Part shown: in pieces, positions 19,049 through 23,755 of the stretch
How the letters are laid out: each line of letters opens with the position of its first letter
How positions within the stretch are numbered: the first letter of the stretch is position 1
Made by a program: the position numbers and the translations under genes
Origin: Sphingomonadaceae bacterium
GTDB lineage: Bacteria > Pseudomonadota > Alphaproteobacteria > Sphingomonadales > Sphingomonadaceae
DNA: 36,849 nt
Assembly: GCA_013001755.1 (NCBI GenBank)
Contig: JABDLY010000125.1
Coordinates: 1 to 36,849 of the forward strand
Direction: 5' to 3'
The notes under the pieces: generated by a model
Told to the model about the DNA's origin: nothing
What the model saw: the letters and a program-made list of their open reading frames with translations, nothing else
Database searches by the model: none

Positions 19049-20242
19049 TTACATGCCAGGACCGTAGGTGATTTCCACCCGGCGGTTCTGCTGTTCGCGC
19101 ACACCGTCGGCGGTTTCGACCAGAGGCCGGCTTTCACCGAAGGCTTCGCTAGCCATGGCACCGTCCGGAACCCCGCGTGAAGCGAGATAGGAACGGACCG
19201 AAGCGTTACGACGCTCAGACAGTCCAACGTTGTAGGTTGCCGAACCCGAACGGTCCGCGTGACCTGCGAGCATGACCGAGGTCGGGCAACGGCCCGTCTG
19301 GTACTGCGCAGCAACCGCATCGAGCACCGATGCCGCATCCGGGCGAATGTCCGACTGATCCCAGTCGAAGAACACCAGGAACGGACCCGGCTCGCACGCC
19401 GGAGGCGGCGGAGGCGGAGGCGGAGGCGGAGGCGGAGGAGGCGGCGGAGGCGGAGGCGGAGGCGGCGGAGGAGACCCGAAATTATAGGTCAGGCCAACCG
19501 ACAGCGAATGCGTCCGATGTTCCAGTTCCGCAGTGGAGCTGTAGAAAGTCTGCAGATCCACATTGGGATGGGTGAAATAGCGATACTCAAGGCTGAGATC
19601 GACATTGCGGGTGATCGGAGCGCGAGCGCCGGCAAGAATCTGCCAGGCGAAACCCGTATCCGAATCCGAAACGTAGACCGGCGCAGCCTGGGTAACCCGA
19701 AGCCCGTCGACCCGCGTGCGGGCAATACCGACACCGCCACCGACATAGCCCTGGAGACCATCGTCGGGACCGAAGTCGAACAGGCCGTTGACCATGAAGC
19801 TGAGGGTACGTGTGCTACCCTGAGCACCATTCCATTCGAACGGAATGCCCGGAGGGTTGCCTCTCGGGCCGCCCGGATTGTAATTCACGCTCTGCTGGCC
19901 GGGCGGTATAAAGCCCTGGATCGGCAACCGAGCACCCGGGACGTCAGCCTGACGAAGGCCGGTGACTTCCGCGCGCTGATATCCGACATCGGCTTCGAGC
20001 CGGAAAAGGCCGAAATCGTAACCGACATTACCGCCGACCGTCCAACCGAGATTGTGATCGACCTTGAACGTTCTGTTGAACGTCGTGCCTACCGAGTTGG
20101 TGACGTCGTACTGCGTGTCCTGGACGAACATGCCACCGCCTTCGACGCCGACATACCATGAATTATCGCGAGCCAGCGCGGGCGTCGCCGCAACGGTGAG
20201 CGCGGTGGTAGCGAGCGCCGCTTTGAGGGCGAACTTGCGCAT
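19049..20242 (-). CDS. OmpA-family outer membrane protein: beta-barrel, long poly-proline linker, C-terminal OmpA peptidoglycan-binding domain
   Basis: MRKFALKAALATTALTVAATPALA signal; barrel strands; S-P(n)-ACEPGPF; VFFDWDQSDIRPDAASVLDAVAAQY...LAGHADRSGSATYNVGLSERRNASVRSYLASRGV. Confidence 0.93.
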   Translation of the reverse strand: MRKFALKAALATTALTVAATPALARDNSWYVGVEGGGMFVQDTQYDVTNSVGTTFNRTFKVDHNLGWTVGGNVGYDFGLFRLEADVGYQRAEVTGLRQADVPGARLPIQGFIPPGQQSVNYNPGGPRGNPPGIPFEWNGAQGSTRTLSFMVNGLFDFGPDDGLQGYVGGGVGIARTRVDGLRVTQAAPVYVSDSDTGFAWQILAGARAPITRNVDLSLEYRYFTHPNVDLQTFYSSTAELEHRTHSLSVGLTYNFGSPPPPPPPPPPPPPPPPPPPPPPPPACEPGPFLVFFDWDQSDIRPDAASVLDAVAAQYQTGRCPTSVMLAGHADRSGSATYNVGLSERRNASVRSYLASRGVPDGAMASEAFGESRPLVETADGVREQQNRRVEITYGPGM

Positions 20243-20495: not shown

Positions 20496-20995
20496 TCACG
20501 GCGCGATCAGCCCATGCCCCCGGAGCGCGGCCAGGATTGCCCCGATCGCCGCGCGCACTTCGCTATCGACAACCGCTCCGCCGCTGGCATTGGAAATAGC
20601 TGGTTGCTGCTCGCCAATCACTTGTAAATCAACAATTTTTAGTAGCCCGGCGACGAGTTCGCCATCGATCCACCCGGCGGCCGTCCGGCGGGTAAACACC
20701 CCCTTGCCGACGAGCCAGACGCACATTTCTGCAACAGGTTTGACAAACCGCTAGCCGCCCCGGTCCAGATCGCCAGCCAGTCGGCTTCACCGGCCCAGTC
20801 ACCGACAGGCGCCGAACCGGTAATCCAGCATTGTCCCGCTGCGGGGTTTGCCGGCGGCGTATTGTCACCGCGCGATTCGGCCACCGGATGCAAGACGGCA
20901 TCGATCAGCGCCAGCGCCTCATTATGCCAGATTTCTTTCTGCGCGTGGCCCGTCAGGAGCTGCGGCAGGGCGAACCGGGGTGTCGTGTCGGTCAT
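20496..20995 (-). pseudogene. DUF2793 (GTA/phage tail-fibre-associated) gene, frameshifted
   Basis: Frame 1: MTDTTPRFALPQLLTGHAQKEIWHNEALALIDAVLHP...GQCWITGSAPVGDWAGEADWLAIWTGAAS; family-like text resumes in another frame as RFVKPVAEMCVWLVGKGVFTRRTAAGWIDGELV...ISNASGGAVVDSEVRAAIGAILAALRGHGLIAP. Frame break at about 20750. Confidence 0.7.
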
Positions 20996-21009
20996 GTGAA
21001 AATCTCCAG

Positions 21010-22003
21010 CTAGAGGATGACACTCGATTCGGCGGGCGGGCTCGATGCCGCCAGCGCGCCCAGCTGGGCGACGGAAACCGTAAAGCCGGTTGCGTCACCC
21101 GCGCCGTCCGCAACCTGCGCTGCTTCGGTGTAGAGATAGGCCGCCGGACCTGTTTCGGCGGTTCGCGCCGTTCCTGCATCGGGCGTGATCGTCACCGACC
21201 AGCGTTCCTCCTCCTCGCCGAGCGGGACATCGCCACCATCGGTCCACGCCCAGCCGCGCCGGCTGCGGCGCAGGCGGGCGAATTGAACGGCCGGCAAGCG
21301 TTAGCGCAGCCTCGGCCGGGATATCGTCGCCGATCCCCGTGGCGAGCAGCTCGAGTTCAGCGCCGAGCATCGCGCTTGCGGCATCGAACGGTTTGAGCGT
21401 CAATGGATCGAGCAGCACAAAACGTTCGCCCGCCACATGATTCGACATCGCCGATTCGGTCCCGCGCCGCCCACGCAACAGCCGCAACAGGCGGAATCGA
21501 TCGACGCCCAGCGCTTCGGCCGCGCCGAACTGTATGAGCTCGTCGCCCAGCAGCGCAAGATTGGCGCCCGCGACAAGCCCGTCGTCATTGCGGCCTTCGA
21601 GCCACATAGTGCCGTGGAGCAGTTCGATCTCGACCGCGTGCGCCGCATCGAACAGCGTGGATTGGCCATCGGCCAGCGTATCGACGGCGGTGCCGATGAT
21701 CGCCGGCGGCGCGGTCTGGCCGATGCTCTCAAAGCTCGCACCGCCGTCGCTGCTGAGTTCGAGCGAGGCATGCCGCCAGCCCGGCAAATGCCCCGCCGCC
21801 GCTATCAGCAGTTGCGGGGCGGCGGCAACGGTATGCGCGTCCATCCAGCTTTTCATCGCGCTCAGCTGGTCACCCATCTTCTCGATCGGAGTCTTCGGCG
21901 GTTCGGGCGCGGGCGCGGGCTCGGCCTCGCTTTCCTCATGGGCGGGTTCCTCCATCGCCGCGAAACTCGCGGCGAGCGGATCCATCTTGGTTTCGATATT
22001 CAT
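21010..22003 (-). pseudogene. GTA/phage tail 'megatron' baseplate protein, C-terminal remnant with aberrant N-terminus and frameshift
   Basis: ELIQFGAAEALGVDRFRLLRLLRGRRGTESAMSNHVAGERFVLLDPL and then, in another frame, RRSRRGWAWTDGGDVPLGEEEERWSVTI...VSVAQLGALAASSPPAESSVIL; N-terminus MNIETKMDPLAASFAAMEEPAHEE does not look like tail protein. Confidence 0.65.
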
Positions 22004-22100
22004 TATGTGCTTCTCCTTGTGGCAAAGAAAAACCCCGCGCCGGGGGGCACGGGGGCGGACTGAGAACTCTCTCCCGCGTGCGGGAGAAGAAATTGGGACT

Positions 22101-22196
22101 CACACAAAGACACCAAGGAAAGCGGCGAATGCACGTCCCAATCTTCGTGCCTTTGTGTCTACGTGCGAAATTTGTGTCTTCGTGTGAAATTTCGAC
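22101..22196. repeat. Intergenic imperfect inverted repeat ('cacaaagacacc / cctttgtgtc' type)
   Basis: cacacaaagacaccaaggaaa...cttcgtgcctttgtgtctacgtgcgaaatttgtgtcttcgtgtgaaatttc, between the GTA remnant and the DUF3297 gene. Confidence 0.55.
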
Positions 22197-22286
22197 AAAT
22201 AGATTGCGCGCTAGGCGAGGATCTAGGCCTCGCCCGTTCGAGAAGCGGGTTTGCGCACGCTATCCTTTCAAACTAAAGGCCGCTCC

Positions 22287-22562
22287 ATGACTGGAGACAC
22301 CGAAAAACCCGCCGCAGACACCCCGCCCGATCGCCTCTCGAACAATCCGACGAGCGATTATTACGAGCCCGAGCTGCTCGCGCGCGGGATCGGCATCCGC
22401 TTCAAGGGCAAGGAGCGCAGCAACGTCGAGGAATATTGCATCTCCGAAGGCTGGATCCGCGTCCAGGCCGGCCGCGCCAACGATCGCCACGGCAACCCGC
22501 TGACGATCAAGATCAACGGCGAGGTCGAGGCGTGGTATGAGGATGTTGGGCAAGGCGACTGA
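22287..22562 (+). CDS. DUF3297 family protein
   Basis: PPDRLSNNPTSDYYEPELLARGIGIRFKGKERSNVEEYCISEGWIRVQAGRANDRHGNPLTIKINGEVEAWYED. Confidence 0.85.
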   Translation: MTGDTEKPAADTPPDRLSNNPTSDYYEPELLARGIGIRFKGKERSNVEEYCISEGWIRVQAGRANDRHGNPLTIKINGEVEAWYEDVGQGD

Positions 22563-22633
22563 GCAGGCCTGCCTGCCGAATTGACAGCCGCCGCCGGGCA
22601 CGACTAGCTTCCTCGCACTGAGGGGGAACATCG

Positions 22634-22918
22634 ATGAGCATCAAAACCATTTTGACGGGCCTGTTGTGCCTTGCGATGATTGTCTGGCTCTATTTCGCAG
22701 TGACCGAAATCTCCGCATTGTCGGGCGATATTGAAGGCATGTCGGCGGCCGATCCCGACGCCGATCCGCTGATCATGCAAACCAGGATGGAGTCGGTTCG
22801 CAGCGCGCAGGACGCCCGGCAGATGACGATCGTCTATGTCGTGATCAGCTTTGTTGTGTTCGCAGCGGCACTGTTCGGCATCCGCCGGATCGGCCGGAAC
22901 AAAGACCCTGAAGGCTAA
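22634..22918 (+). CDS. Small membrane protein with two predicted TM helices, unknown function
   Basis: MSIKTILTGLLCLAMIVWLYFAVTEIS...QMTIVYVVISFVVFAAALFGIRRIGRNKDPEG; start preceded by agggggaacatcg. Confidence 0.65.
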   Translation: MSIKTILTGLLCLAMIVWLYFAVTEISALSGDIEGMSAADPDADPLIMQTRMESVRSAQDARQMTIVYVVISFVVFAAALFGIRRIGRNKDPEG

Positions 22919-23007
22919 GCCGCGCAACTCATACCGCCGAGTGCATGAATGCGCGCGATCGGCTGCATCGGGATGTTGACGAGGCTTACCTCGACCAGAT
23001 CGAAATC
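22915..23007 (-). pseudogene. HK97-type prohead protease C-terminal stub (GTA remnant)
   Basis: Reverse strand frame reads TDFDLVEVSLVNIPMQPIARIHALGGMSCAA*, matching the terminal strand motif (EVSLV..PM.P.AR) of HK97 prohead proteases, immediately after the TerS-like stop. Confidence 0.5.
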
Positions 23008-23503
23008 AGTCCTCATAGCCGAGCCTTTCGCGCATCTCGTCGAGCCTGGCTTCAAGCTCGGTGCGGGCGGCTTCATAGGCTTCGTCGAGATCTTCGTCGG
23101 TCTCGCCGGGCGCGCCCTTCACATTGTCGCGGTGGAGCGAGAGCAGGCGCAGCGCCATCGCATCATTATAGACGGTCTTCGTGCCGACCTTCTTTCCGCC
23201 ATGCCAGACATCCTCCTCGACGCCATGGAGCGCACGCTCGATCAGCGCGCGTTCGAGCCTTTCATAGCCCGAAGTCAGCGCCGCGAGCATGCCGGCGCGG
23301 AAGGTGGCGTCCTTCTTGCGATGGCAGTCGATGGTGCTCGGCGAAAAGCCGCAGACCTTGGCCGATGCGGTGATGTTGCAGGTTTCGGCAAGTGCATCGA
23401 GGAAGACCTGCTTGTCTTCCCTGCCGAAGCGGCGCGCGCGAGGCGTCTTGATCTGTGGTCTCCCGCCCCCGCCGCGCGCGAGCTCGGCTTCGCATCTGGG
23501 CAT
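23006..23503 (-). CDS. GTA/phage terminase small subunit-like protein
   Basis: GRPQIKTPRARRFGREDKQVFLDALAETCNITASAKVCGFSPSTIDCHRKKDATFRAGMLAALTSGYERLERALIERALHG; HTH-like N-terminus; start at internal Met (MPRCEAE). Confidence 0.65.
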   Translation of the reverse strand: MPRCEAELARGGGGRPQIKTPRARRFGREDKQVFLDALAETCNITASAKVCGFSPSTIDCHRKKDATFRAGMLAALTSGYERLERALIERALHGVEEDVWHGGKKVGTKTVYNDAMALRLLSLHRDNVKGAPGETDEDLDEAYEAARTELEARLDEMRERLGYED

Positions 23504-23549
23504 GGCGTGTCCTTGTTGAAACGAAGATATCGGCGCATTGCCGGTTGCC

Positions 23550-23640
23550 GTCATTGCGAGCGCAGCGACGCAATCTAGAACCGTTAGCGCTACTGCCAGC
23601 CGCTCCGGATTGCTTCGTCGCTCCGCTCCTCGCAACGACG
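23550..23640. repeat. Intergenic palindromic repeat, GTCATTGCGAGCG family, copy 2
   Basis: gtcattgcgagcgcagcgacgcaatctag...ccggattgcttcgtcgctccgctcctcgcaacgac; same approximate 91 bp length as copy 1. Confidence 0.78.
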
Positions 23641-23694
23641 GTTTCCGATCGAAATCATCGCCGCCGTCGCGAATCGGATTTTTCGACGTTCCGG

Positions 23695-23755
23695 ATATGT
23701 ACCTAAACAGCGTAACGTTGTCAAGGTATTTTTACCGGTTTGGTACATATTGACA
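23695..23755. promoter_or_regulatory. Nested inverted repeats upstream of the TPR gene
   Basis: ATATGTACC (23695-23703) / GGTACATAT (23742-23750) flanking GGTA-TTTT-TACC; plus TGTCAA / TTGACA. Confidence 0.45.

Follow-up and report, generated by a model that had tools for sequence, protein, structure and literature searches.

Gene transfer agents (GTAs) are tamed viruses that ferry bacterial DNA from cell to cell, and why they persist despite the lysis of their producers is an open question, for which models invoke non-producing cheater lineages. The closest intact systems to the locus described here are the RcGTA-like head-tail clusters of three Sphingomonadales relatives (G003, G004 and G005), which are colinear, have full-length main genes, and follow the order terS, terL, portal, protease, capsid, tail genes, megatron, DUF2793. 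In the case of G003 the terS end was located separately, and the first ~80 TerL residues lie outside the fetched stretch. Many pseudogenised or lost alphaproteobacterial GTAs have already been published (PMC10883770), and these are likewise cases of GTA decay, but the passages that deal with them do not describe deletion anatomy.

The window, by which we mean the whole 36,849-nucleotide stretch analysed, is a contig of a 2.49-Mb draft genome (244 contigs, 90.5% complete; G000, hereafter the source genome), whose group is Parasphingopyxis or close kin (Sphingomonadales). On the minus strand, between 20.5 and 23.7 kb, it carries what is very probably (about 0.93, judging from sequence comparisons) a collapsed RcGTA-like head-tail cluster that still occupies its native locus and was reduced by two deletions. 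Read from 23.7 to 20.5 kb, the order is a promoter-like element, TerS, a protease stub, a capsid N-terminus joined to megatron, and DUF2793 (Table 1). The original prediction had named four fragments in this order and on this strand, namely an intact-looking TerS-like gene, a stub of the HK97 protease C-terminus, a chimeric ORF ending as a GTA megatron, and DUF2793. All four were borne out by PHROG, NCBIfam and Pfam profiles and by tblastn with congener proteins, with matches well beyond chance and to sphingomonad GTA proteins. As it also proposed, the 5′ and 3′ ends of the cluster are kept and the middle is gone: the pieces are colinear with the full congener clusters and share their locus, but only TerS, the protease tail, capsid residues 1-62, the megatron C-terminus and DUF2793 are left, while TerL, portal, capsid body, adaptors, tail genes and most of the megatron are lost. 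The remnant thus lacks the conserved head-tail set of a functional RcGTA-like GTA. Without TerL, portal and capsid, particle production would be expected to be impossible, and we infer that the remnant has lost its function.

Table 1. Features of the collapsed GTA locus and its surroundings (window coordinates unless another contig is named)
Feature	Position	Strand	Basis or remark
OmpA-like gene, syntenic 3′ boundary of GTA locus	19049..20242	-	also beside the G011 and G025 remnants
DUF2793 second half, residues 86-170	20502..20756	-	past frameshift at ~20756; tblastn
DUF2793 first half, G005 residues 6-85	20756..20995	-	PF10983, E 4e-16
Megatron C-terminus, G005 residues 642-733	21013..21288	-	other frame, past small deletion
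Megatron fragment, G005 residues 443-629	21266..21823	-	in frame with capsid N-terminus
Capsid-megatron junction	21819..21824	-	6-bp GCCGCC common to both alignments; deletion scar 2
Major capsid protein N-terminus, ~62 residues	21818..22003	-	tblastn, G005 capsid residues 1-66, E 1e-13
Intrinsic-terminator-like hairpin and T run	22033..22054	-	just ahead of capsid start
DUF3297 gene, intact	22287..22562	+	PF11730, E 4e-38; antisense in GTA cluster
Small membrane-protein ORF, 94 aa	22634..22918	+	between protease stub and DUF3297
HK97-type prohead protease C-terminal stub, 23 residues (205-227 of 229)	22939..23007	-	tblastn with G005 protease, E 6e-8
TerS (terminase small subunit)	23006..23503	-	open frame, 165 aa incl. 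stop; PHROG 4044, E 8e-21
Dispersed palindromic repeat, ~100 bp	23549..23643	.	between promoter and terS
Putative GTA promoter upstream of TerS	23695..23750	-	alignment of six genomes
DUF6456 GafA/GafZ-type gene	L073 (G000:C57:919-1308); L071 (G009)

The full clusters and the remnant share their borders, an OmpA-like gene and a glycosyltransferase on one side and the TerS promoter on the other, so that the congeners hold a complete cluster between the same neighbours; the flanks, as well as an internal DUF3297 gene, are common to G001, G003, G004 and G005. (The OmpA-like protein of the window has a run of ~30 prolines between its beta-barrel and its OmpA domain.) The pieces could in principle descend from an ordinary prophage, or from a phage tail module, that decayed and had no connection with a GTA, as PHROG families match and TerS has weak phage relatives, at about 34% identity or less. 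This origin has a negligible probability and is largely refuted by synteny, since locus and order equal those of the full congener GTA clusters; moreover, the megatron-DUF2793 order is GTA-specific, the window has no tRNA gene, and no integrase was noticed in it. A phage origin of TerS itself was also considered and rejected, the phage comparison yielding these distant matches and no others.

A search of the source genome for a second cluster found none. In this 90.5%-complete assembly there is no further megatron match outside the 21.0-21.9 kb remnant, the sole trace of capsid is a 66-residue match at the remnant, and a GTA_TIM search was empty. The portal search, itself run without a positive control, was also empty; the G005 portal protein does find the portals of the congener loci. 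As the assembly is a draft, its missing tenth might still conceal a GTA copy.

The original prediction ascribed the collapse to internal deletion, which agrees with the junctions, except that two deletions have to be distinguished and not one. The first scar lies where the protease stub, a stretch conserved in relatives, abuts the terS stop codon. Compared with G005, about 4.3 kb are missing from terS to the protease end, but the ancestral span was smaller than this, because G005 holds an inserted Xre/MbcA-RES toxin-antitoxin pair between terL and portal (L024 3782-4896). Deletion 1 would have run from just past terS to the last protease codons, removing TerL, portal and most of the protease.

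The second scar is inside the chimeric ORF (22003-21098, minus strand). Its N-terminal ~62 residues, MNIETKMDPLAASFAAMEE, are capsid according to the tblastn alignment, a point that goes beyond the earlier reading, as does the position of DUF3297 between the deletions. The remainder matches residues 982-1198 of NCBIfam GTA_megatron (E 5e-22) and Pfam Rcc01698_C (E 3e-24). The match continues in another frame (21297-21013; GTA_megatron residues 1211-1296, E 6e-12). In all, the last ~290 megatron residues are retained, and the frame within them is shifted by a lesser deletion, which removes 62 bp by comparison with G005. A scan of the wider genome set's contigs with the chimera found a single relative, namely the N-terminal part of the capsid in Parasphingopyxis lamellibrachiae DSM 26725. 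About 9 kb are missing relative to G005, from capsid codon ~62 to megatron codon 443, and deletion 2 would have taken the capsid body, adaptors, tail tube, tape measure and hub. Since the join sits in a 6-bp repeat, this deletion was probably a short-homology, RecA-independent event. The DUF2793 gene that closes the cluster is almost whole (residues 6-170 of 171) and has one frameshift. In addition to the two large deletions, therefore, the remnant carries disabling frameshifts in megatron and DUF2793; small indels and the dispersed palindromic repeat would have come after the deletions.

The DUF3297 gene between the two scars occupies the same antisense position, between protease and capsid, in the intact relatives. 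It was found in 113 of the 121 family genomes sampled, nearly always as a single copy, with coordinates far from megatron outside the genus, and it is kept in 10/10 genus genomes, including G009, where the OmpA-like gene is some 450 bp away. We infer that the GTA cluster took in DUF3297, a host gene with a useful role, and that deletions hitting this gene would be selected against, leaving GTA loss to proceed on each side; two deletions would then have been needed for the collapse because this gene lay between them. The Caulobacter GTA is similar in having an antisense gene, CCNA_02873, which is bleomycin-resistance-like and of a different family, and whose number adjoins that of the capsid gene, CCNA_02872 (PMC9632790). 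With the Caulobacter position taken from this gene numbering, the likeness suggests a recurrent slot for antisense host-type genes. The small membrane-protein ORF on the protease side of DUF3297 has no homologue in the relatives' GTA loci fetched.

The terminator-like hairpin ahead of the capsid is conserved in eight genus genomes (the source genome, G001 and G003-G008). As a lead, it is a possible internal attenuation or anti-termination point; Caulobacter GafYZ acts by anti-termination, at a position other than the capsid leader (PMC11150451). We also asked whether the stretch ahead of the capsid (22061-22215) and an insert in the G008 TerL gene are copies of one repeat; this was rejected, and 22061-22215 occurs only once in the source genome.

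Among the nine assessable genus genomes, only G003, G004 and G005 have complete-looking clusters. In G007, within a 263-kb contig, an in-frame fusion joins capsid residues 1-395 to the megatron (residue 123 onward) across a shared 11-bp AAGCTGCTGCG; two stop codons follow downstream, and terS, terL, portal and protease are still present. In G006 the capsid reading frame passes, at residue ~347, into that of a tail gene from further downstream; this fusion lies at a contig end. The single-contig genome G009 has kept only the last 15 protease residues, DUF3297 and a 46-residue tail of DUF2793. The TerL of G001 extends no further than its ATPase part and ends about 42 bp short of the portal match (L023 16830-17600), and this cut-off TerL suggests that the GTA of the cultured P. 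lamellibrachiae type strain is non-functional. In G008, TerL is broken by a ~240-bp inverted-repeat-like insert (L031 7127-7368). Elsewhere, that genome (G008:C24; L063 9453-10346) encodes a second HK97-type capsid with 42% identity, which probably belongs to an unrelated prophage. Outside the genus, G011 and G025 hold only the megatron C-terminus and an open DUF2793, and 19 of the 61 genomes surveyed, some of them incomplete assemblies, have no megatron match. The collapses at this one locus in several related species are independent as judged from their differing breakpoints, the sole basis for telling nested from independent loss, as the rpoB tree leaves the source genome unresolved.

These cases also bear on whether the remnant is a product of faulty binning or assembly, in which distant parts of a fragmented draft were brought together. 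Such an artefact is very improbable: a single 36.8-kb contig spans the junctions and has homologous flanks to either side of them, the frameshifts are internal to the remnant, there is no stray capsid or portal elsewhere in the source genome, and analogous collapses occur in the single contig of G009 and the long contig of G007. We considered selection for in-frame fusions and rejected it, because codon periodicity puts the 6-10-base words shared by capsid and megatron in phase 50-70% of the time, and an in-frame fusion therefore needs no selection.

The pieces of the collapsed cluster have diverged no more than intact relatives have among themselves. The megatron remnant has a protein identity of 0.62 and a pN/pS of 0.45 against G005, and the intact G005-G003 pair has 0.61 and 0.43. 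As these values match, most of the divergence predates the collapse, which is, by this measure, recent relative to the genus. Likewise, because the divergence between remnant and relative equals that between intact copies, the open terS frame is no evidence of present selection. TerS is 64% identical to that of G008, whose copy precedes the GTA TerL, with a pN/pS of 0.41.

The promoter-like element ahead of terS pairs TTGACA with TACATA over a 17-nt spacer, and a TACC-N5-GGTA dyad precedes them. The element occurs once per genome in the source genome, G003, G004 and G005, is more conserved than terS (80-86% identity between relatives and the source genome; 84-86% for the intact G005 and G004), and is linked to terS across the genus, while the divergent neighbour gene differs between species. 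The palindromic repeat in the terS leader belongs to a dispersed family with 73 matches over both strands, at ~40 places in the source genome, and has a strong predicted hairpin (z = −4.6); in the six-genome alignment it is not in the relatives' terS leaders. Elsewhere in the source genome there is a gene with the DUF6456 domain (PF20057) that marks the GafA/GafZ regulators, GafA homologues being annotated as DUF6456 proteins (PMC9638019). This predicted activator gene is intact, is found in 10/10 genus genomes, and adjoins a divergent HTH-repressor-like gene even where the GTA has collapsed or been erased.

One reading of these survivals is that the remnant has been kept for a function, for example as a decoy or regulator: the GTA promoter and the DUF6456 protein would still drive synthesis of TerS and possibly of the capsid-megatron fusion. 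This reading would accommodate the open TerS frame and its pN/pS, the promoter's likeness to that of G005 and G004, the intact DUF6456 gene and the in-frame capsid-tail fusions of three genomes. We nevertheless regard it as improbable: the chimera runs into a frameshift, the hairpin repeat sits in the terS leader, in-frame fusion is expected from word phasing, and the broken pieces have the pN/pS of intact relatives, so that recency alone explains the open TerS. In the recently collapsed cluster that we favour, the conserved GTA promoter may still direct transcription of terS, and TerS, if so expressed, would probably be without its target machinery.

What is new relative to the published losses is the breakpoints, the retention of an embedded host gene, and the parallel collapses within one genus. 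The parts that outlast the structural genes are DUF3297 and the DUF6456 activator, in all genomes, and the terS promoter in the source genome. We think it unlikely, though worth stating, that two things hold together: that the sparing of DUF3297 by every decay imposed separate, two-sided deletions, and that a different role for the activator and the TerS promoter keeps both in place after the structural genes are gone. If true, that role could be, for example, the action of TerS or the DUF6456 protein on host DNA. At a single syntenic locus, the GTAs of this genus span every stage between complete and almost wholly erased, and their breakpoints are independent; they offer a natural series in which to measure how fast, in what order and at what selective cost GTAs are lost.
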